DNA of 64,000 nucleotides from Yoonia sp. F2084L (GTDB lineage Bacteria > Pseudomonadota > Alphaproteobacteria > Rhodobacterales > Rhodobacteraceae): assembly GCF_023015625.1 (NCBI RefSeq), contig NZ_JALKAH010000002.1, positions 496,001 to 560,000 on the forward strand, in the 5' to 3' direction. This document shows, in pieces, positions 53,552 to 64,000 of the stretch. Position 1 is the stretch's first letter. Every line of letters begins with the position of its first letter. The translations under genes were made by a program, and so were the position numbers. Under the pieces are notes generated by a model. It saw only the letters and a program-made list of their open reading frames with translations. It had not been told where the DNA came from and did no database searches.

Positions 53552-54430
53552 ATGACATTTGATCAGATCAAGACTTTTCTTTGGGTGGCCCGCCTAGGCG
53601 GGTTTCGCCGCGCGGGAAAGCGGTTAAATCTATCGCAACCCGCGATCTCCACCCGCATCGCCAACCTTGAACAAGAGCTGCGCGTCCCGTTGTTTGAACG
53701 CGGCCCCGGAGAGTTGGTCCTGACCAAACAGGGCACTTTGCTGTTGTCCTATGCCGAACAGATGCTGTTCGTCGAGGAAGAGATCAAACAGCGCGTCGCC
53801 AACCCCTCCGAGACCGAAGGCCTGTTCCGCGTCGGCGCATCCGAAACGATTGCCCAAGCGTGGTTGCCCGATTTCCTCAAGGCACTCAGCGAAGAATACC
53901 CCCGCGTGAACGTGGATCTTACGGTCGATATTTCCCTGAACCTGCGGTCCGCGCTACTGGAGCGGAAACTGGATCTTGCGCTCCTCATGGGGCCGGTGTC
54001 TGAATTTTCGGTGGAGAACGTCGATCTGCCATCCTTTGATCTTCATTGGTATCGCGCCAGTGCCAATCCGCAGACGGACCTGACCCAGATCCCGGTCATT
54101 TCGTACTCCAGCAAGACGCGCCCATACCGCGAACTGATGTCGGAGTTGTCGCGCAGGGTGGGGCCGAAGTTGCGGGTCTTTGCCTCGGCCTCATTGTCGG
54201 CCAGTCTAAAGATGATCGCGGCGGGAATCGCTGTTGGGCCTTACCCCCGGGCGCTGGCGAATGATTTTCTTGCCTCCGGGCAGATCGTGGAATTCGATCC
54301 GGGGTTCCGGCCACAGCCGCTGTCGTTCACGGCGTCCTATCTTTCAGAACCGCGCAGTTTTCTTGTCGAAAACAGTGCGGAAATGGCGCGTGCGGTGGCT
54401 GTCGACTGGGACAGGTCGCATCCAAAATAG
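53552..54430 (+). CDS. LysR-family transcriptional regulator
   Basis: A 292-residue regulator with an N-terminal helix-turn-helix (residues 2-60: TFDQIKTFLWVARLGGFRRA and LNLSQPAISTRIANLEQELR) and a LysR substrate-binding domain. The sensing domain should bind a small carboxylate related to the pathway. It is encoded just upstream, in the same direction, of the hydrolyase-TRAP-pxp genes and separated from them by a short AT-rich region with a perfect palindrome. Likely the local activator, inferred from position. Confidence 0.9.
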   Translation: MTFDQIKTFLWVARLGGFRRAGKRLNLSQPAISTRIANLEQELRVPLFERGPGELVLTKQGTLLLSYAEQMLFVEEEIKQRVANPSETEGLFRVGASETIAQAWLPDFLKALSEEYPRVNVDLTVDISLNLRSALLERKLDLALLMGPVSEFSVENVDLPSFDLHWYRASANPQTDLTQIPVISYSSKTRPYRELMSELSRRVGPKLRVFASASLSASLKMIAAGIAVGPYPRALANDFLASGQIVEFDPGFRPQPLSFTASYLSEPRSFLVENSAEMARAVAVDWDRSHPK

Positions 54431-54439
54431 ATTTAGAAA

Positions 54440-54455
54440 ATCTATCACGATAGAT
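54440..54455. promoter_or_regulatory. Candidate LysR operator
   Basis: ATCTATC-AC-GATAGAT is a perfect 7-base inverted repeat with a 2-base centre, in an AT-rich stretch between the LysR stop and the next gene. It includes the T-N11-A spacing commonly seen in LysR sites. Operator function for the catabolic operon is inferred. Confidence 0.5.
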
Positions 54456-54490
54456 ACAAAATGATAATTTGATTGGAGACGTGACACCAT

Positions 54491-55342
54491 GTGATGCTGA
54501 GATTGATCACACCGGGGGCAAGCGTGACCATAACCACAGTTTCACATTCCGATCTCATAGGTGCCTCTGCTGCAGAAGTTCGTGCCGCAATCCGCAGCGG
54601 TGCCTACACCGGCCATACGGCTGGGTTGGCGGCTGGAAAGCTGCAATGCAACGTGGCCATTCTGCCCGAGCAAGACGCACTCGACTTCTTGCGGTTTTGT
54701 CTGCGCAATCCCAAGCCCTGCCCTGTCGTGGGTGTCGGCGACAGCGGCGACGCAAAGCTGCCCACGCTGGGCCGCGACATCGACATGCGCACAGACGTCG
54801 CCAGATATCGCGTATTCCGCGATGGTGCATTGAGCGAGGAAGTCACGGATATTTCGGATGTGTGGACCGATGACCTAGTGACCGTTGCCCTGGGCTGTTC
54901 GTTCACCTTTGAAAACGCGCTGGTGCGTCACGGCATTCCCGTGCGCCATCTGGAAACGGGCCGCAATGTACCGATGTTCAAATCCAATATCAATCTGGTC
55001 CCTGCTGGGCGGTTTGGTGGGCAGATGGTGGTGACCATGCGCCCTATCCCGGCCGATCAGGTTGATGCCGCCCGCGAGATCAGCCGCCGCTATCCGCAAG
55101 CCCACGGCGCCCCCATCGCGGCGGGCGACCCCGCACATATCGGCATTACCGATCTGTCTGCCCCCGATTGGGGCGACGCGGTCGAGATCAGAGACGGCGA
55201 AGTCCCCGTCTATTGGGCCTGCGGTGTCACCCCGCAGAACGTGCTGCTGGACGCGGCACTGCCAATCTGCATCACGCATTCGCCCGGTCATATGCTGATC
55301 GCTGATGTGGCCGAAGACGCCGAAACAACAATCCTCAACTGA
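54491..55342 (+). CDS. DUF1445 hydro-lyase / D-glutamate cyclase-like protein
   Basis: A 283-residue protein of the DUF1445 family, members of which include D-glutamate cyclase, which turns D-glutamate into 5-oxo-D-proline. Recognised by EVRAAIRSGAYTGHTAGLAAG, LQCNVAILPEQDALDFLRFC, GCSFTFENAL and WACGVTPQNV. The start is uncertain: GTG 54491, ATG 54494 and GTG 54524 are in frame; GGAGAC at 54475 favours the first two. First gene of the operon that continues with TRAP transport and oxoprolinase, which fits a role in feeding 5-oxoproline chemistry. Confidence 0.8.
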   Translation: MMLRLITPGASVTITTVSHSDLIGASAAEVRAAIRSGAYTGHTAGLAAGKLQCNVAILPEQDALDFLRFCLRNPKPCPVVGVGDSGDAKLPTLGRDIDMRTDVARYRVFRDGALSEEVTDISDVWTDDLVTVALGCSFTFENALVRHGIPVRHLETGRNVPMFKSNINLVPAGRFGGQMVVTMRPIPADQVDAAREISRRYPQAHGAPIAAGDPAHIGITDLSAPDWGDAVEIRDGEVPVYWACGVTPQNVLLDAALPICITHSPGHMLIADVAEDAETTILN

Positions 55343-55374
55343 GGACCGACAAATCCAACAAGGAGACTAAGACA

Positions 55375-56406
55375 ATGAAAAAGATGATCTCAATTCTGGC
55401 CGCAACAACGGCACTGGCTGCACCGGCCAACGCTGAAAACCTGTCAGTTGTCGGCAGCTGGTCCAGCCTGCCGCTGCACAACCAATACGAAGCGCCGTTC
55501 TGGTCCACGACCCTGCCCGAAGCCTCTGGCGGTGCCATCACGGTTGAGCTGACGACCCACAACCAGATGAGCCTTGGTCTGGGCGATATCTATCCGCTGC
55601 TGGGTCAGGGTGTGTACGATGTTGCAATGACTGTGGCTGACTATGCGGTGGCCGATGCACCCGAACTTGAAGGCCTTGATGTGCCGCTTCTGGCGCTCAC
55701 CGCGGATGAAGCGCGCGCCATGGTGGACGCGGCCCGGCCGATGGTCTCTGACATTTACCGCGACCGTTTCAACAGCCACGTGCTGGCGATTGCGCCTTAC
55801 CCGCCGCAGGTCGTGTTCTGTAACCACGAGATTGCGAACCTTGGCGATCTGGAGGGCCTCAAAGTGCGTGCATCAGGCCGCATGACCGCCAAACTGCTTG
55901 AAGCGCTGGGCGCTGAGGGCGTGAATGTGTCCTTCGCCGAAGTTCCGGGCGCCTTGCAGAACGGCGTTGTCGATTGCGCCGTCACCGGTGCCGGCTCGGG
56001 CTACAGCGCGGGCTGGTGGGAAGTGTCCACACATCTGTTGCCGATCCCGCTGGGTGGCTGGGACTCTGTGGTCACTGCGATCAACCTCGACAAATGGAAC
56101 AGCCTTGACGCAGACACACAGGCGCTGATCAGCGGCGAAGTTGCCAGCGGTTTCGAAGACCCGGCATGGGCCAGCGCGCAGAACGCCTTGGTTAACGACA
56201 TCGCCTGCCTGACCGGCAATGGTGAGTGCCCATCAGGTGACGCGCGGTCCATGATATTGGTTGCGGTCAGCGACGCTGATTTTGATCGCGCCCGCGAGAT
56301 CCTGACCAGTGAAGTTCTGCCGGAATGGGCAGAGCGCGCAGGAGGAGACTGGGCAACGCGCTGGAATGACAGTGTTGGCCAGGTTGTTGGCGTGACAATC
56401 GAGTAA
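55375..56406 (+). CDS. dctP: TRAP transporter substrate-binding protein (DctP)
   Basis: A 343-residue periplasmic binding protein with a signal peptide (cleavage near PANAEN). It carries the TRAP pattern GDLEGLKVRASGRMTAKLLE, where the arginine normally salt-bridges a carboxylate of the ligand, followed by VSFAEVPGALQNGVVDCAVTG. The ligand is therefore likely an organic acid; the flanking pxp genes point to pyroglutamate or a related amino acid derivative. The gene follows the DUF1445 gene by 32 bases and has AAGGAG upstream. Confidence 0.9.
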   Translation: MKKMISILAATTALAAPANAENLSVVGSWSSLPLHNQYEAPFWSTTLPEASGGAITVELTTHNQMSLGLGDIYPLLGQGVYDVAMTVADYAVADAPELEGLDVPLLALTADEARAMVDAARPMVSDIYRDRFNSHVLAIAPYPPQVVFCNHEIANLGDLEGLKVRASGRMTAKLLEALGAEGVNVSFAEVPGALQNGVVDCAVTGAGSGYSAGWWEVSTHLLPIPLGGWDSVVTAINLDKWNSLDADTQALISGEVASGFEDPAWASAQNALVNDIACLTGNGECPSGDARSMILVAVSDADFDRAREILTSEVLPEWAERAGGDWATRWNDSVGQVVGVTIE

Positions 56407-56447
56407 GGTCTTGCACCTTTAACCGACTGACAGGGGACGGACCTATC

Positions 56448-56996
56448 ATGGAACGCAAGATGATTCAAAGCCTTCGGGTGATCAACAGAGGGGTGGCGCT
56501 GGTCGTCGGCTTTGGCCTGCTTGCCTGCGCAGCCTTTGTGCTGCTCGATATCATCATGCGCCAGATCGGGACGTCCCTTGGCGGCACCGAAGAGATCGCA
56601 GGCTACGCTATGGCGCTCGTGACGTCTTGGGGCATGTCCTACACTCTGCTGGAACTGGGGCATGTGCGCATTGATCTGCTGCGGTCGCGCTTTCAAAGCT
56701 TCGGGCGCGCATTGCTGGATGTGTTTTCCATGATCGTGATGTCGGGCGTGATCATCACCATCGCGATCAAGGCCTGGCCGGTTTTGGAACGCTCTCTGAC
56801 CATGGGATCGCGCGCCAACACACCGCTTGAAACGCCTCTCGCCTGGGTTCAGTTGCCTTGGTTTGCGGGATGGGTCTGGTTTGCGGCCATGTCGTGCCTG
56901 ACAACCCTTGCCGCGCTCAGCTTACTGATCAAACGCCGCTTTGAGGACAGCGAAGCGATTGTCGGCGCTTTTGCCGAGCAGGAGACACTGCAATGA
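56448..56996 (+). CDS. dctQ: TRAP transporter small permease (DctQ)
   Basis: A 182-residue membrane protein with four transmembrane helices and the DctQ pattern LLDIIMRQIGTSLGGTEEIAGY. It is the small membrane subunit that pairs with the large permease. Its stop overlaps the start of dctM by four bases. Confidence 0.9.
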   Translation: MERKMIQSLRVINRGVALVVGFGLLACAAFVLLDIIMRQIGTSLGGTEEIAGYAMALVTSWGMSYTLLELGHVRIDLLRSRFQSFGRALLDVFSMIVMSGVIITIAIKAWPVLERSLTMGSRANTPLETPLAWVQLPWFAGWVWFAAMSCLTTLAALSLLIKRRFEDSEAIVGAFAEQETLQ

Positions 56997-58276
56997 TCGG
57001 GTTTGTTTCTGTCGGGCTTCTGGGGCTGCTGGCCCTGTCCATTCCGGTTGGCATCGTCCTGTTCTTGCTGGGTTTTGGGATTGATACCTTCTTTTCGAGT
57101 TTTCCATTGACGCGCGGTCTGGGTAACATGGTCTGGTCGTCATCCAATTCCGCGACGCTAATCGCCATCCCGTTTTTTGTACTGCTGGGTGAAATCCTCG
57201 TGCGCAGCGGGGTTGCAACGCGAACCTACGCCGCCCTTGACCGCTGGGTCAGCTGGCTGCCCGGCGGGTTGATCCATGCCAATGTGGCGACCGCGACGAT
57301 GTTTTCCGCAACCTCTGGGTCGTCTGTTGCCACCGCAGCCACGGTCGCGACCGTGGCCATGCCGCAGGCCGAAAAGCTGGGGTATGACCCCAAGCTGTTT
57401 TCCGGCGCCATTGCTGCGGGCGGCACACTCGGGATCATGATCCCGCCGTCGATCAACCTGATCGTCTATGGGTTTTTGACACAATCCTCGATCCCGCAAC
57501 TGTTTCTGGCGGGTCTGATCCCCGGTATCGCGCTGGCTTTGGCGTTTATGGTTGTTACGGCAATCATTTGTCTCATTCGCCCGGATCTGGGCGGTGTGCG
57601 CCGGACATTCCCGTTTGGGCAAATGCTGCGCGCGCTGGTTGATCTGATCCCGATCCTGATCCTGTTTGGCCTGATCGTGGGGTCGATCTATCGCGGCTGG
57701 GCCACCCCGACAGAGGCCGCCGCCGTGGGCGTTGCAGGCGCGTTTCTGATCGCTTTCGCCTTTGGCGGCGTGTCATGGGACATGCTGACGCAAAGCCTGA
57801 CCGGCACCATCAAGATCACCTCGATGATCATGCTGATCGTCATCGGCGCGTCATTCCTGAATTTCACGCTGGCATCAGCGGGATTGGGCCGCGAGCTGAC
57901 TGCATTCATGGAAGGGCTGGGCCTGTCGCCATTAGGCTTCATCCTTGTGGTGGTCGTCCTTTACATCGTGCTGGGCTTTTTCATCGAAACCCTGTCACTC
58001 ATGGTTGTGACGATCCCGATCATCGTGCCCATGGTCCTTGTACAGGGCTATGATGTGATCTGGTTCGGCATCCTGATGATTGTGCTCATTGAAATGGCGT
58101 TGATCACCCCGCCCGTTGGTTTGAACCTCTACGTCGTGCAAGGGGCGCGCAAGTCAGGTAGCCTGAACGAAGTCATGCTGGGGGCGCTCCCTTACTGCCT
58201 GACGATGCTGGCCATGGCCTTCCTGCTGATCGCTTTCCCCAACATCGCGTTGTTCCTGCCCACCGCCTTGCAATAG
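56993..58276 (+). CDS. dctM: TRAP transporter large permease (DctM)
   Basis: A 427-residue membrane protein with about twelve helices, the sodium-coupled transport subunit. Typical blocks: IPFFVLLGEILVRSGV, SATSGSSVATAATVATVAMP, GGTLGIMIPPSINLIVYG and TPTEAAAVGV. It completes the TRAP system and is followed by pxpA after ten bases, so uptake and breakdown are in one operon. Confidence 0.94.
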   Translation: MIGFVSVGLLGLLALSIPVGIVLFLLGFGIDTFFSSFPLTRGLGNMVWSSSNSATLIAIPFFVLLGEILVRSGVATRTYAALDRWVSWLPGGLIHANVATATMFSATSGSSVATAATVATVAMPQAEKLGYDPKLFSGAIAAGGTLGIMIPPSINLIVYGFLTQSSIPQLFLAGLIPGIALALAFMVVTAIICLIRPDLGGVRRTFPFGQMLRALVDLIPILILFGLIVGSIYRGWATPTEAAAVGVAGAFLIAFAFGGVSWDMLTQSLTGTIKITSMIMLIVIGASFLNFTLASAGLGRELTAFMEGLGLSPLGFILVVVVLYIVLGFFIETLSLMVVTIPIIVPMVLVQGYDVIWFGILMIVLIEMALITPPVGLNLYVVQGARKSGSLNEVMLGALPYCLTMLAMAFLLIAFPNIALFLPTALQ

Positions 58277-58286
58277 GACTGAGGCT

Positions 58287-59048
58287 ATGCGCATCGACCT
58301 TAATTCAGATTTGGGTGAAGGGTTTGGTCCTTGGGACATGGGCGAGGATGCGCAGATGCTGTCCATCGTTACCTCTGCAAATATCGCCTGTGGCGGTCAT
58401 GCAGGTGATCCCGACACCATGTTTCGCACGCTTTCGCTGGCCCGTGACAACGGCGTGACTGTGGGTGCCCACCCCGGATACGCTGATCGCATCGGGTTCG
58501 GGCGGCGTGTGATCCCCATGTCGATGGATGAGATCGCACGCATGTGCGCAGCCCAGATTGGCGCGTTGCAAGGGGTGGCCGCATTAGTCGGCGTGCCCGT
58601 GGCCTATGTCAAACCACATGGCGCGCTGGCCAACCTTGCGGCGCGGGATCGTCACGTGGCCGATGCCATCATGGCGGCCATTCAAAAGATCGACCCGGAT
58701 ATGGCGGTTTTGGCGATATCCGGCACCCAAACCGAACACGCCGCCCGTGCGGCAGGCATGAACGTGTATTCCGAGATTTTTGCGGATCGCGCCTATCTGT
58801 CATCGGGCCAGCTGGTGCCCCGCGACCAGCCCGGCGCGATGATCCACGACGCAGGCAAGGCCGCAGCGCGTCTTTTGTCGTTCCTTGAAACCGGGCGGAT
58901 GCCCGTAGTAGACGGTGACCCGGTCAAGCTTGCAGCGCATTCGATCTGTGTGCACGGCGACAGCCCTGGTGCATTGGCGATGGCGCGCGAAATCCGCGAT
59001 CGGTTGATGGCGCAAGGCGTGCAGATCGTCTCTTTTCTGGACAGCTGA
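58287..59048 (+). CDS. pxpA: 5-oxoprolinase subunit A
   Basis: A 253-residue LamB/YcsF-family protein. The signature DLNSDLGEGFGPWDMGED and ANIACGGHAGDPDTM occupy the N-terminus and the later [12 protein letters not shown] is also diagnostic. With PxpB and PxpC it hydrolyses 5-oxo-L-proline (pyroglutamate) to glutamate at the expense of ATP. Gene order pxpABC is intact and follows the TRAP genes. Confidence 0.93.
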   Translation: MRIDLNSDLGEGFGPWDMGEDAQMLSIVTSANIACGGHAGDPDTMFRTLSLARDNGVTVGAHPGYADRIGFGRRVIPMSMDEIARMCAAQIGALQGVAALVGVPVAYVKPHGALANLAARDRHVADAIMAAIQKIDPDMAVLAISGTQTEHAARAAGMNVYSEIFADRAYLSSGQLVPRDQPGAMIHDAGKAAARLLSFLETGRMPVVDGDPVKLAAHSICVHGDSPGALAMAREIRDRLMAQGVQIVSFLDS

Positions 59049-59055
59049 GGACCGC

Positions 59056-59745
59056 ATGGACCCGCAATTCAAAGCCATCGCTGATCACGCGCTGCTTGTG
59101 ACCTTCGCTGAGGAAATCTCGGACGCCGCGCATGGCGCTGTGCTGGCGCTGGATGCAGCCCTTGGCGCAAATCCGCCAGATGGGATGATCGAAACAGTCC
59201 CTGCCATGGTCAACCTGCTGGTCTCGTTTGACCCTATCTTGACCGAACATGACGCCATCAAAACCTATGTTCAAGGCTGCCTTGGGGCGTCGCTCAAGGC
59301 CCGGACGGAGGGTATAACGCGCACGGTGCAGGTTTGCTACGAAGCGCCATTTTCGCCCGATCTGGCGGCCGTGTCCTCGGCCACGGGCCTCACCCCGGAG
59401 GCCGTGATCAATGCCCATCTGTCCGGAGATTTTCGCGTGCTTATGTATGGCTTCTCACCGGGCTATGCCTATTTGTCGGGCGTCCCAGGCGCCATTCAGG
59501 TGCCACGCAAACCCGCACCTGTGCGCGATGTCCCCGCAGGGAGCGTGATCATCGCCGGGCCGCAATGCCTGATCACGACGCTGAAAATGCCCACGGGCTG
59601 GTCGATCATTGGGCGATCGCCCACAGCGATCCTGACGGGCGACCCGGATGCGCCGTTCCTGTTTGACGTCGGCGACCGGGTGACGTTCCAACGGATTGAT
59701 GCCGCTACCTTTGCGCAACTGGACAAGGCAAGCGACCATGGCTGA
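59056..59745 (+). CDS. pxpB: 5-oxoprolinase subunit B (KipI-like)
   Basis: A 229-residue protein of the KipI/allophanate hydrolase subunit 1 family. The block LMYGFSPGYAYLSGVPGAIQVPR-like segment (residues 130-155) and GWSIIGRSPTAI are typical; the family is related to urea-carboxylase-type enzymes. It forms a complex with PxpC. The gene overlaps the pxpC start by eight bases. Confidence 0.92.
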   Translation: MDPQFKAIADHALLVTFAEEISDAAHGAVLALDAALGANPPDGMIETVPAMVNLLVSFDPILTEHDAIKTYVQGCLGASLKARTEGITRTVQVCYEAPFSPDLAAVSSATGLTPEAVINAHLSGDFRVLMYGFSPGYAYLSGVPGAIQVPRKPAPVRDVPAGSVIIAGPQCLITTLKMPTGWSIIGRSPTAILTGDPDAPFLFDVGDRVTFQRIDAATFAQLDKASDHG

Positions 59746-60739
59746 GGCTGCCTTCACTGTCGCTTTTGCCGGCCCGCTGGTCACGCTGCAGGATGCGGGC
59801 CGCCCCGGACACATGCGTTTCGGCGTTCCTCAATCCGGGGCCATGGACCGGCTGGCGTTTGACGCGGCCAACGCCGCCCTTGGCAACAAAAGCGGGCAGA
59901 CCGGAATCGAAATATCGCTGGGCGGGTTGGTCCTGCAATGCACCCATGGGGCGGCCACAGTGGCCATTGCGGGTGGCGATTTTACCGTCCAGCTTGGCAC
60001 GCAAAAGACCCGCTCATGGACAATCCTAACGGTTCAAAAGGGCGAGCGTTTGTCGATCACCGCAGGCAAGGTCGGAAGCTGGGCCTATCTTGCCTTCGCG
60101 GGGCGGATCACGGCGCCGGAGTGGTTGGGTAGTCAGGCGACGCACGCGACGTCCGGTTTCGGCGGGGGTGCCTTGCAAAGCGGACAAACGATTATCTTGT
60201 CCGATACGGCCGTGCGCGAGGATCGTCTGGGCGACATCCCAAAACCGGACTTTCAAACCTCCCGGCCGATCCGTGTCGTTACCGGCCCGCAAGATCAGCA
60301 TTTTGCCAAAGAGACGGTCACGCAGTTTCTGACGGACAGTTTCGCCGTCTCAGACGCCTTTGATCGCATGGGGATGCGCCTGAAAGGGCCGGAGTTGCCC
60401 TTGGCCGGGGCGCTTTCGATCCCTTCGGAACCCATTGTGCGCGGGTCCGTGCAGGTATCTGGCGACGGCGTCCCGACAGTGCTGCTGGCTGACCATCAAA
60501 CCACAGGCGGCTATCCCAAGATCGCCACCGTCATTTCACCCGATATTGACCGGTTGGTACAGCATCGCGCAGGGCAGAGCGTGCGGTTCGCGGATATCAC
60601 CAGCGCCCAAGCTGTGGCAGAGGCCCGCAGCTATGCCCAGCAAAAGGCGGCATATCTGGCCGAGGTTTCCGTCGCACGCGGGACTTTGGCGCAGCGCTTA
60701 ATGCGCGAAAACCTCAGTCATGGCTGCGCTTTCGACTAA
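59738..60739 (+). CDS. pxpC: 5-oxoprolinase subunit C (KipA-like)
   Basis: A 333-residue biotin-independent carboxyltransferase-like protein of the KipA/allophanate hydrolase subunit 2 family. The opening LVTLQDAGRPGHMRFGVPQS and GAMDRLAFDAANAALGN are diagnostic. The frame extends back to 59696, but the ATG at 59738 starts the family core. It is the last gene of the pxp operon and is convergent with the DUF2848 gene, whose stop lies only four bases away. Confidence 0.92.
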   Translation: MAEAAFTVAFAGPLVTLQDAGRPGHMRFGVPQSGAMDRLAFDAANAALGNKSGQTGIEISLGGLVLQCTHGAATVAIAGGDFTVQLGTQKTRSWTILTVQKGERLSITAGKVGSWAYLAFAGRITAPEWLGSQATHATSGFGGGALQSGQTIILSDTAVREDRLGDIPKPDFQTSRPIRVVTGPQDQHFAKETVTQFLTDSFAVSDAFDRMGMRLKGPELPLAGALSIPSEPIVRGSVQVSGDGVPTVLLADHQTTGGYPKIATVISPDIDRLVQHRAGQSVRFADITSAQAVAEARSYAQQKAAYLAEVSVARGTLAQRLMRENLSHGCAFD

Positions 60740-60743
60740 CGCG

Positions 60744-61430
60744 TCACGCAACAATCGGCAGCGTCTTTACTGTATAGGACAGGTCTATGGTCTTGCCACG
60801 GTGGGGGTCCGATACTTCCATCCGATAAGAACGGGCGGGTCGCACTCCGCCGATTGCGGCGAAGGTGCCACATAGCATGGCTGTCCCATCGTCAAACCCG
60901 GCCCCGTCGCACAGATCTTCCAGCGGGCGAATGCCAGCCAGGGTTCCATCTTGATACAAAACCTCTTGCCCGTTCTCTGTGATCCAACAACGCAAGCGCA
61001 TATCATCAAGATGGCCGACAATATCGTCAAAGTCCCACAGCGTGGTGGCAATGGGTTTGGCGCAAACTTGCTTGGACGCGGCAACGGAATGGGCCTCCAG
61101 ATCGCGGTCCGTGTGGTCGGATGCGAGGCCAAAATAGGTCTTGCCACCCGCCCGGATCAACAAGGGTTCGACCTCGCCCGAAGAGCCTTCGCCCAGAACC
61201 TCGATCTTGTCAGATTGGGTCAAAAGCGCGGTTGAGACGCGATAGTACAGGGGGACCTGACTGGGCGGGCTGATACCCAGTTCGGCCAACTCATCAATGT
61301 GGTGCTGGACAGCCGCCAAGTCTCGCCCCGTCCACCCTGCGACGACACACGCGTTTATCGGCAGAGTGATGCTCCTGTTTTCAACATTGAAAGCTATATC
61401 CACGGTTTCAAGTCCTTTCGTGATCATCAA
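60744..61430 (-). CDS. DUF2848-family protein
   Basis: A 228-residue protein of the DUF2848 type, of unknown function. It is soluble and has the motif TYFGLASDHTDRDLEAHSVA and GFDDGTAMLCGTF, resembling the fold of fumarylacetoacetate hydrolase-like proteins, though this similarity is only an impression. It is encoded on the opposite strand with its stop four bases from the pxpC stop. In other genomes, as I recall, such genes accompany amino-acid or hydantoin catabolism. The place here suggests a step in handling the imported substrate. Confidence 0.75.
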   Translation of the reverse strand: MMITKGLETVDIAFNVENRSITLPINACVVAGWTGRDLAAVQHHIDELAELGISPPSQVPLYYRVSTALLTQSDKIEVLGEGSSGEVEPLLIRAGGKTYFGLASDHTDRDLEAHSVAASKQVCAKPIATTLWDFDDIVGHLDDMRLRCWITENGQEVLYQDGTLAGIRPLEDLCDGAGFDDGTAMLCGTFAAIGGVRPARSYRMEVSDPHRGKTIDLSYTVKTLPIVA

Positions 61431-61663: not shown

Positions 61664-61909
61664 TCACCCGCCCACCATATAGGGCATCAAGATCACCTCG
61701 TTCTCTGGCCCGATCTTGGTGAACCATGCTTCCCGGTAGATCACCCCGTCCAGTGCCAGCGATACGCCGCGTTTGATTTGCGGTTTCAATCCGGGGTACT
61801 TCTCTGCCAAGGCATCCAGCAATTCCTTGAAATTGCTCGCCTCGACCTCGACCCATTCTTCGCCATCGGCCAAGGCGCGCAATGATCCCCAGAGTTTGAC
61901 CCGCACCAT
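61664..61909 (-). CDS. MoaD/ThiS-family sulfur carrier-like protein
   Basis: An 81-residue ubiquitin-fold protein (WGSLRALADGEEWVEVEA, LDALAEKYPGLKP) ending in the diagnostic Gly-Gly, where a thiocarboxylate is formed for sulfur transfer. It follows the molybdenum hydroxylase gene after four bases on the same strand. This suggests sulfur delivery for that enzyme's cofactor or for its own maturation, but a different role is possible. Starts with ATG at 61909. Confidence 0.8.
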   Translation of the reverse strand: MVRVKLWGSLRALADGEEWVEVEASNFKELLDALAEKYPGLKPQIKRGVSLALDGVIYREAWFTKIGPENEVILMPYMVGG

Positions 61910-61913
61910 GGCC

Positions 61914-64000
61914 CTAGCCTGTCATCGCTTTCAGCAATCGCGGTGGTGACATCGGCAGTTCCGTCATCCGCACACCCGCCGCCCGCGATACCGCGTTTGA
62001 AACCGCAGCCAAAGGCGGCACAATGGGTGTCTCGCCCACGCCGCGCACGCCGTAGGGGTGGCCGGGGTTGGGGATTTCAAGGATCACCGTTTCGATTGGC
62101 GGCAGGTCGGAGGCCACGGGCACGCGGTAGTCCAAAAACCCAGCGTTTTGCAGCCGCCCATCTTCGCCGTAGATATACTCTTCGTTCAGCGCCCAGCCGA
62201 TGCCTTGCACGGCCCCGCCCTGCATCTGCCCTTCGACGTAATCGGGGTGCACGGCTTTGCCTGCGTCTTGAAACACCGTGTAGCGCAGAATTTTGACCGC
62301 GCCTGTTTCGCGGTCCACTTCGGTGTCGCACAGGTGCACGCCAAAGCTGACGCCTGCGCCGTCTGCGTTCACCTCATGGTGCCCCGCAATCGGCCCGCCG
62401 GTTTTGCCTGCGATTGCGGCAATCTCGGCCAGTGTCATTGGGGGATGTGTGCCCGCGTTTGGCCCTGCCGGTTTGGCACAGCCGTCTTCCCAGATCACCG
62501 CCTCTTCGTCGATATCCCATATTTTCGCGACACGGCGGCACATCTCTTTGATCGCGGCGCGCGCGGCCTCGATCGTGGCGAGGCCGACGGCAAAGGTCAC
62601 CCGGCTGCCGTCGGTGATATCGTTGAACCCCAGCGACGAGGTGTCTGCGATGACCGTACGTACCTTGTCGTAAGGGACACCCAGTTCCTCTGCCGCCATC
62701 ATCGAAATGGAGGCGCGCGAACCGCCGATATCAGGGTTGCCTTCGACCACGCCGATGGTGCCATCATCGTTGATATTCAGCGACACGCAGGTGTTGCCGC
62801 CAAAGTTGAACCAGAACCCGCAGGACAGACCCCGCCCTTGGTTCGGCCCAAGGGGGGCGGTGTAATGTGGGTGGGCCTTGGCGGCTTCGAGCGTAGCGAC
62901 CAGTCCGATTTCATTGAATGTTGGCCCGTAGGACGACCGCGTGCCTTTGCGTGCCGCGTTCATCAGGCGCACGTCCAGCGGGTCGAGACCCAGCTCCTGA
63001 CACAGCTCATCCACCACGCTTTCAACAGCGTAGATCGCGGTCGGCGCACCGGGTGCACGATAGGGAATTTCCTTAGGACGGTTCGTCATCGCGTTCCACC
63101 CGACAGTTTCCACTGCTTCAAGGTCATACGCCGCAAAAGCCGCCTGCGCGCCCATATCCACCGTCGCGTTCGGATAGGCGCCGCCGGAATAGCGCAGCTC
63201 GCCCCGTGCCGCCGTGATACGGCCATCTTTGGTCATGCCGATCTTGATATCCATCGACGTCGAAATCGTTGGTCCCGTCGCTTTAAGAACCTCATCGCGG
63301 GTCATCACGATTTTCACCGGTTTGCCCGCCTTGCGTGACAGGGCAAGTGCGACAGGTTCAATGAAGGTCGAGGTTTTGCCGCCAAAGCCGCCCCCGATTT
63401 CGGACGCGGTGATGCGCAGCTGGCTTTCCTCGACCCCCAGTGCTGCGGCGCAATTCGCGCGCACCATGTATTGCCCTTGCGTACAGCACCAGACCTCGCC
63501 TCGGCCATCGCTGCCAAGGCTCGCCATGCAGGCCTGTGGTTCGATGTAGCCTTGGTGCGTTGCGGCAGTCTTGAAGCTGCGTTCGATAATCTTGTCGGCC
63601 TTGGCGAACCCGGCCTCCAGATCGCCATGACCGAACTGGCAATGTGTGGTGACGTTTTGGGACATGCCTGCAGGCACGGTTTCAAGTGCGCGACCTTCCT
63701 GCACCACGGGCGCGTCGGGCTTCATCGCTTCGTCCACGTCCGTCACATGCGGCAGTTTCTCGTAGTTGACCTTGATCAGCCGGATCGCCTGTTTGGCAAT
63801 CGCTTTGCTGGTTGCGGCAACAGCGGCGACAGCATGCCCATCATAGAGAACCTTGTCGCGTGCAAGGCAGTTGATCGCGACATCCGCAAAGGCTTCGTCC
63901 TCGGGCTGTGCAAGATCTGTGCCAGTGACTACGGCTTTGACGCCAGTCAGCGCCTTTGCCGCTGACGTATCAATCGACACGATCCGTGCGTGTGCATGCG
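61914..64000 (-). CDS. Xanthine dehydrogenase-family molybdopterin-binding subunit (5' end outside window)
   Basis: The large subunit of a molybdenum hydroxylase (xanthine/aldehyde oxidase or CO-dehydrogenase-like). The frame continues past 63980 to the window edge as HAHARI just before VSIDTS, the normal internal sequence of this family, so the N-terminus lies outside and the gene is cut at 64000. Motifs: ITASEIGGGFGGKTST for the cofactor, PYRAPGAPTAIYAVES, and GVRGVGETPIVPP with the catalytic glutamate. The substrate cannot be told. FAD and iron-sulfur subunits would be expected upstream, outside the window. Confidence 0.9.
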   Translation of the reverse strand, partial: HAHARIVSIDTSAAKALTGVKAVVTGTDLAQPEDEAFADVAINCLARDKVLYDGHAVAAVAATSKAIAKQAIRLIKVNYEKLPHVTDVDEAMKPDAPVVQEGRALETVPAGMSQNVTTHCQFGHGDLEAGFAKADKIIERSFKTAATHQGYIEPQACMASLGSDGRGEVWCCTQGQYMVRANCAAALGVEESQLRITASEIGGGFGGKTSTFIEPVALALSRKAGKPVKIVMTRDEVLKATGPTISTSMDIKIGMTKDGRITAARGELRYSGGAYPNATVDMGAQAAFAAYDLEAVETVGWNAMTNRPKEIPYRAPGAPTAIYAVESVVDELCQELGLDPLDVRLMNAARKGTRSSYGPTFNEIGLVATLEAAKAHPHYTAPLGPNQGRGLSCGFWFNFGGNTCVSLNINDDGTIGVVEGNPDIGGSRASISMMAAEELGVPYDKVRTVIADTSSLGFNDITDGSRVTFAVGLATIEAARAAIKEMCRRVAKIWDIDEEAVIWEDGCAKPAGPNAGTHPPMTLAEIAAIAGKTGGPIAGHHEVNADGAGVSFGVHLCDTEVDRETGAVKILRYTVFQDAGKAVHPDYVEGQMQGGAVQGIGWALNEEYIYGEDGRLQNAGFLDYRVPVASDLPPIETVILEIPNPGHPYGVRGVGETPIVPPLAAVSNAVSRAAGVRMTELPMSPPRLLKAMTG

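Follow-up and report, generated by a model that had tools for sequence, protein, structure and literature searches.

5-Oxoproline arises unavoidably from glutamate and glutamine, and its recycling by bacteria has been little studied. Among the described systems, the pxpA(ycsF)-ycsG-ycsI-pxpB(kipI)-pxpC(kipA) operon of B. subtilis combines a DUF1445 protein (YcsI) with pxpABC and a transporter (PMC10448178), and the pxpTABC/PxpR system of C. glutamicum couples regulated uptake to PxpABC and supports growth on 5-oxo-L-proline (PMC13274462). In Bordetella pertussis, the tripartite ATP-independent periplasmic (TRAP) receptors DctP6 and DctP7, which lie near a 5-oxoprolinase gene, were solved with pyroglutamate. 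Here we analyse a comparable locus in a 64,000-nt stretch of Yoonia sp. F2084L (NZ_JALKAH010000002.1, positions 496,001-560,000; hereafter, the window). At positions 53552-61430, genes for a LysR-type regulator, a DUF1445 protein (PF07286), a TRAP transporter (dctPQM) and the three subunits of a 5-oxoprolinase (pxpABC) follow one another, with a convergent DUF2848 gene at the end. Pfam searches placed every member of this order where the sequence-only reading had put it, and all eight genes as well as DUF2848 exceed the gathering scores of their own families. Compared with this locus, the B. subtilis operon carries an NRAMP-type YcsG instead of a TRAP transporter, lacks dctPQM and DUF2848 and is regulated differently; C. 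glutamicum uses an APC/NRAMP-like PxpT and a GntR-type PxpR, and its named operon has no DUF1445 gene; and the Bordetella 5-oxoprolinase is of the eukaryotic type, unlike PxpABC. This kind of operon is already known, and the combination of TRAP, DUF1445 and LysR is a variant of it.

We propose that DctPQM would import a small carboxylate, most likely 5-oxoproline, that DUF1445 would act on the cytoplasmic 5-oxoproline pool whichever transporter or 5-oxoprolinase accompanies it, and that PxpABC would open the lactam with ATP to yield L-glutamate. That the module serves the uptake and catabolism of 5-oxoproline is likely; for the entire scheme, a LysR-controlled operon for 5-oxoproline scavenging, we put the chances of its being right at about even. 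A LysR-controlled import and 5-oxoproline module ending in glutamate had also been put forward from the sequence alone, and both the gene content and the recurrence of such loci support it.

To place the window among its relatives, we compared about 180 DUF1445 loci, drawn from 80 named contigs (mostly Roseobacters), a class sample of 190 genomes (DUF1445 in 38) and a phylum sample of 399 genomes (DUF1445 in 65); the PF07286 search also detected the B. subtilis positive control. Labels beginning with L, G and C below denote our loci, genomes and contigs, respectively. Throughout the Roseobacters the order LysR-DUF1445-dctPQM was found again, and so is not due to chance. This core is constant, and what differs between loci are the genes 3' of dctM. 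In a comparison set of 60 Roseobacter loci, which is biased towards relatives of the window, these are pxp genes in 16 loci, an OPLAH-type gene in 20 and neither in 20, the remaining four being too short to tell. The OPLAH-type protein is a single chain of ~1190-1210 aa with the domains Hydant_A_N, Hydantoinase_A and Hydantoinase_B (PF05378-PF01968-PF02538), and this HyuAB/OPLAH-type enzyme is unrelated to PxpABC. On the DUF1445 tree of these loci, the two enzymes must have replaced each other at least three times. A possible OPLAH remnant where the enzymes swap, seen in the closest relative (L077), was rejected, as the fragment belongs to an other-strand gene that is truncated where the stretch ends.

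The same alternation was seen in the class and phylum samples, which together hold 102 DUF1445 loci. Within 9.5 kb of DUF1445, pxp genes (at least two of the three) were present in 26 loci and an OPLAH-type gene in 12, with no locus containing both; TRAP genes were found in 44 and DUF2848 in 18, and 37 loci had no tested partner. Almost all oxoprolinase genes near DUF1445 are on its strand, mostly within 6 kb and rarer with distance, which provides a built-in control against chance linkage. Both enzymes occur beside DUF1445 in the TRAP context of the window, in that of a second TRAP family (pxp in L189, L195 and L205; OPLAH-type in L035, L171, L179 and L182) and in that of a major facilitator superfamily carrier (pxp in L143-146, L167 and L168; OPLAH-type in L149, L201 and L202). 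Because DUF1445 accompanies both enzymes across these transporter contexts, it appears to belong to a 5-oxoproline pathway. In addition, 5-oxoproline is the one substrate common to PxpABC and the eukaryotic-type 5-oxoprolinase in the literature, and since the two enzymes swap behind the same core, it is the best-supported candidate for the substrate of the module.

Such operons are also found on plasmids. NRAMP-pxpABC-DUF1445 operons are annotated on plasmids of Klebsiella (L243), Lactiplantibacillus (L242) and Bacillus badius, and a conjugative Sulfitobacter plasmid (L247) carries LysR-DUF1445-TRAP-OPLAH-DUF2848. DUF1445 was matched in 93 Klebsiella plasmid records.

In the window, PxpA, PxpB and PxpC are adjacent and belong to PF03746, PF02682 and PF02626, respectively. 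PxpA scores 353 bits with NF003814 (subfamily cut-off, 226), PxpB reaches 128 bits with TIGR00370, under the equivalog cut-off of 145.55, and PxpC 184 bits with NF045499, under the equivalog cut-off of 500. Judging from these families, PxpABC would carry out the ATP-dependent hydrolysis of 5-oxo-L-proline to L-glutamate. The genes dctP, dctQ and dctM are likewise adjacent and encode a DctP-type TRAP system with the conserved substrate-binding arginine, R165, which is invariant in our alignment and aligns with the arginine of 2PFZ. An arginine at this position binds carboxylates in DctP-type receptors. In a single-sequence search of the PDB, 2PFZ was the top match and 2PFY was also listed, two entries that we take to be the pyroglutamate-bound Bordetella DctP6 and DctP7 receptors. 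With a profile, 5IGA, 5I5P, 7NRR and 7NSW outrank both, and because receptors of other ligands score equally well or higher in that search, we claim no DctP ligand from the sequence. The transporter itself can be exchanged: in the Roseobacter loci L090, L095, L101, L103 and L108 the TRAP system has been swapped (DctM 51-52% identical), with DUF1445 still 75-79% identical.

The DUF1445 protein of the window matches PF07286 with 214 bits over 143/143 positions and NF003969 with 392 bits (cut-off, 324); NCBIfam names it only 'putative hydro-lyase', and the Pfam name is now D-Glu_cyclase. Its predicted model has a predicted local distance difference test score (pLDDT) of 92.6 and matches the two PDB entries given in Table 1. 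A further candidate relative, the NrpR-like 3NEK, was rejected (Foldseek E 4e-6, but TM-score 0.38-0.45 and root mean square deviation 9.6), and apparent domain fusions at several loci (open frames of 440-806 aa) proved to be upstream read-through of high-G+C frames. DUF1445 has many invariant residues. Two cysteines stand out, one in each half of the protein: C125 in the motif GCSFTFENAL and C233 in ACGVTPQNVL (272-aa numbering). Each sits between a strand and a helix in the predicted model, and a half-to-half profile alignment pairs the two motifs exactly, although the signal is weak, with 2 of 100 column shuffles scoring as high. Both positions are cysteine in all 80 oxoprolinase-linked and all 53 TRAP- or DUF2848-linked proteins (133 in total), and the 12 proteins with serine variants all fall within the 47 unlinked loci (Fisher P 3e-8, a value inflated by relatedness). 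Both cysteines are replaced by serine in L151-L156, L213, L214 and L216, where no oxoprolinase lies nearby; in the Mesorhizobium loci L151-L156 the variant gene is directly 3' of a fliR-like flagellar gene.

Cofactor-independent racemases, among them proline and hydantoin racemase, are built in this way, with one cysteine in each half. By analogy with these enzymes, DUF1445 might interconvert 5-oxo-D- and 5-oxo-L-proline and so supply the missing racemase, a tentative assignment that we rate somewhat below even, but still as its likeliest role. It would turn 5-oxo-D-proline into 5-oxo-L-proline by proton transfer between the two cysteines, making both enantiomers usable. If DUF1445 is a 5-oxoproline racemase, the operon would be complete, leading from imported D- or L-5-oxoproline to the L-form and on to L-glutamate. 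Hydantoin utilisation clusters contain an analogous set of stereo-converting enzyme, ring-opening enzyme and importer, and their HyuA and HyuB families are common to OPLAH-type proteins, but sequence and fold searches found no homology between DUF1445 and hydantoin racemase. No recurrent separate racemase was found near DUF1445: 65 unassigned neighbour proteins yielded one Ala_racemase_N protein of the pyridoxal phosphate type and one DAO member. A literature search returned no paper on a 5-oxoproline racemase or on bacterial D-pyroglutamate.

The Pfam name of PF07286 points to another function. According to it, DUF1445 alone would be a D-glutamate cyclase, the TRAP transporter would import D-glutamate, for instance from peptidoglycan, and 5-oxo-D-proline would reach PxpABC directly or via a racemase. 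The experimental basis is mammalian DGLUCY (9030617O03Rik/C14orf159), which contains a DUF1445 domain as in the window, but fused to DUF4392; the mouse protein converts D-glutamate to 5-oxo-D-proline, as determined with standards of both enantiomers (PMC5339696). However, the assay was of the full-length fusion and did not localise the activity to one domain, and the racemase-like homology lies in the DUF4392 half (PMC5339696). A stand-alone DUF4392 protein of Thermococcus is Mn-dependent and phosphatase-like and may represent the catalytic half, and its authors proposed that sequential reactions are brought together where it is fused to DUF1445 (PMC5132392). We found no DUF4392 (PF14336) match in the Yoonia genome, whereas an identical search detected the family in nine related genomes. 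As there is no detectable DUF4392 in this genome, the DUF1445 protein of the window acts without the other domain behind the cyclase label. The earlier assumption that DUF1445 makes 5-oxo-D-proline is thus not established, since the tested protein was the two-domain mouse fusion, and nothing in our analysis pointed to D-glutamate or peptidoglycan as a source. The stereochemical puzzle raised in the sequence-only reading stands as long as DUF1445 is taken for a cyclase, and vanishes if it is a stereo-converting enzyme. The cyclase route would also require an unlisted racemase or a D-active PxpABC, and DUF1445 is found with 5-oxoprolinases and many kinds of transporter where there is no D-glutamate gene. 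Taken together, we consider it unlikely that DUF1445 acts as a D-glutamate cyclase by itself; the label may have been assigned to the wrong half.

The distribution of DUF4392 bears on the same question. In four of the sampled Gammaproteobacteria (G302, G406, G489 and G515) its gene is the immediate neighbour of DUF1445, and in G497 it lies ~5 kb off. A separate DUF4392 gene adjoins DUF1445 and pxpBC in L150, L185 and L186, and DUF1445 alone in L184 and L241. DUF1445 occurs in 7/9 genomes with DUF4392 versus 65/399 overall (hypergeometric P 6e-5, without correction for relatedness; one family accounts for four of the seven). In L150 the operon reads DUF1445-pxpABC-DUF4392-LysR-aminotransferase IV, and a class IV aminotransferase (D-amino acid transaminases belong to this family) is part of the DUF1445-pxp-DUF4392 cluster in L150, L185 and L186, which speaks for the cyclase. 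These clusters (L150:10001-15876 for the first) could be a split-gene route from D-glutamate to L-glutamate. A more far-reaching version of the racemase proposal would make DUF1445 a cofactor-independent two-cysteine 5-oxoproline racemase of a new fold and place the cyclase of DGLUCY in DUF4392; bacteria would then run D-glutamate to 5-oxo-D-proline, 5-oxo-L-proline and L-glutamate in separate genes, the last two steps being those of the window operon behind its TRAP transporter. We regard this combination as doubtful.

Several observations weigh against 5-oxoproline scavenging with DUF1445 as the racemase. Known racemases were absent from the fold matches of DUF1445 in the structure search, the internal repeat signal is weak and the Cys-to-Ser proteins stem from few lineages. 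The product of the mouse fusion is 5-oxo-D-proline (PMC5339696) and humans excrete mostly the D-form of 5-oxoproline, which disfavours a strong racemase in mammals. At the level of the module, 37 of the 102 loci have no tested partner nearby and in 20 of the 60 Roseobacter loci the operon has no oxoprolinase gene. Moreover, the OPLAH-type proteins match by family only, below every equivalog cut-off, the solved structure closest to them is named N-methylhydantoinase, and other TRAP receptors outrank 2PFY and 2PFZ as profile matches of DctP.

DUF2848 raises the possibility of a different substrate. The predicted fold of this protein has 29 PDB matches at E<=0.001, all in the fumarylacetoacetate hydrolase (FAH) superfamily (best 4MAQ, E 9.4e-10), and E85, E87, D104 and K119 are invariant in 14 DUF2848 sequences (an ExE, D, K pattern); by analogy, the ExE...D residues would be metal ligands. 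In many relatives the gene lies within the operon and on its strand; in the window and close relatives it is convergent 3' of pxpC. In 14 of the 18 class and phylum loci with DUF2848, a PF01425 amidase comes after it, and six loci also contain pxp, in the order DUF1445-dctPQM-DUF2848-amidase-pxp. Large operons of this type that begin with LysR were observed in L188, L190, L192, L196 and L197. As relatives have it within the operon, DUF2848 is likely a functional part of the module and not a bystander; our guess, made from the fold, is that its substrate would be of the 2-oxo-acid or 2-oxoglutaramate type. These data could mean that the module handles a related lactam or amide, such as cyclic 2-oxoglutaramate or a substituted 5-oxoproline. 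DUF2848 and the amidase would then contribute some of the chemistry, and DUF1445 would be a hydro-lyase. The FAH fold is typical of enzymes acting on 2-oxo acids, and several cyclic amides are substrates of the HyuAB family. However, many DUF1445-pxp and DUF1445-OPLAH operons contain neither DUF2848 nor the amidase, 5-oxoproline is the one experimentally known substrate of PxpABC, and in the window DUF2848 is on the opposite strand with no amidase relative found downstream. A related lactam or amide is therefore an improbable substrate in our view.

Finally, DUF1445 could be accessory to ordinary uptake and hydrolysis of L-5-oxoproline, serving in damage control, metabolite sensing or complex assembly with no stereochemical role. 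C. glutamicum grows on 5-oxo-L-proline via a pxp operon without DUF1445 (PMC13274462), and the Yoonia genome itself has a second pxp set (C5, ~39 kb; PxpA 49% identical) with no DUF1445 alongside. On the other hand, DUF1445 has many invariant residues and is retained while transporter and oxoprolinase swap, as expected for a pathway enzyme, and we consider a purely accessory role very unlikely. The genome also encodes an OPLAH-type protein (C6, ~200 kb) that is 74-80% identical to DUF1445-linked ones of other Roseobacters. Its gene adjoins a TRAP operon with a DctP similar to that of the second DUF1445-linked TRAP family; this operon faces away from the OPLAH-type gene and has no DUF1445 (L160, G000:C6:193000-212000). 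Given the second pxp set and the OPLAH-type gene, single knockouts may have little effect.

The layout of the locus fits a single transcript from DUF1445 to pxpC, because dctQ/dctM and pxpB/pxpC overlap and the remaining gaps are only 7-41 bases (Table 1). The most likely start of DUF1445 is the GTG at 54524, giving 272 aa, which we prefer over the GTG at 54491 because the latter falls within a non-coding leader conserved across species; DUF2848 probably starts at the ATG at 61427. Upstream of DUF1445, the TGATAATTTG core was found in 53 of the 60 Roseobacter loci, with either pxp or OPLAH-type genes downstream, and the exact 13-mer AAATGATAATTTG occurs a single time in the 3.9-Mb genome. This suggests that the conserved block at 54443-54471 may be a dedicated LysR switch with one target operon.

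Table 1. Genes and putative regulatory elements of the module (window coordinates).
Feature	Position	Strand	Evidence
LysR-type regulator	53552..54430	+	PF00126 + PF03466; almost always adjoins DUF1445 in the Roseobacter loci
Inverted repeat TATCACGATAGATA, probable LysR operator half	54443..54456	+	TATC-N-GAT block between lysR and DUF1445, conserved among the Roseobacter loci
Conserved box AAATGATAATTTG, probable LysR/promoter element	54459..54471	+	TGATAATTTG core conserved
DUF1445/PF07286 protein	54524..55342	+	PF07286; 2PIF and 3DB9; linked to both kinds of 5-oxoprolinase; conserved Cys pair
DctP, TRAP solute-binding protein	55375..56406	+	PF03480
DctQ, TRAP small permease	56448..56996	+	PF04290
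DctM, TRAP large permease	56993..58276	+	PF06808; TIGR00786 above cut-off
PxpA, 5-oxoprolinase subunit	58287..59048	+	PF03746 (319 bits); NF003814; PDB 1V6T, 2DFA, 1XW8
PxpB, 5-oxoprolinase subunit	59056..59745	+	PF02682
PxpC, 5-oxoprolinase subunit	59738..60739	+	PF02626
DUF2848, FAH-fold enzyme	60744..61427 (open frame to 61430)	-	PF11010; fold match 4MAQ

Beyond the module, the minus strand at 61664-63980 carries a ThiS/MoaD-like gene (61664-61909) directly after the large subunit of a molybdenum hydroxylase of the xanthine/aldehyde dehydrogenase type (MoCoBD_1 and MoCoBD_2), which runs towards the end of the window. This unit is probably separate from the module.

What is new here is the repeated swap between two 5-oxoprolinases, unrelated to each other, while the DUF1445 core in front of them stays constant, together with the FAH fold of DUF2848 and the case against an unqualified cyclase label. 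That the two enzymes are interchangeable behind one regulator, DUF1445 and importer is strong genetic evidence for the substrate. The widely used label of PF07286 rests on a two-domain protein, and the role of DUF1445 is directly testable, as this is a small, well-folded bacterial protein whose structure type is known.

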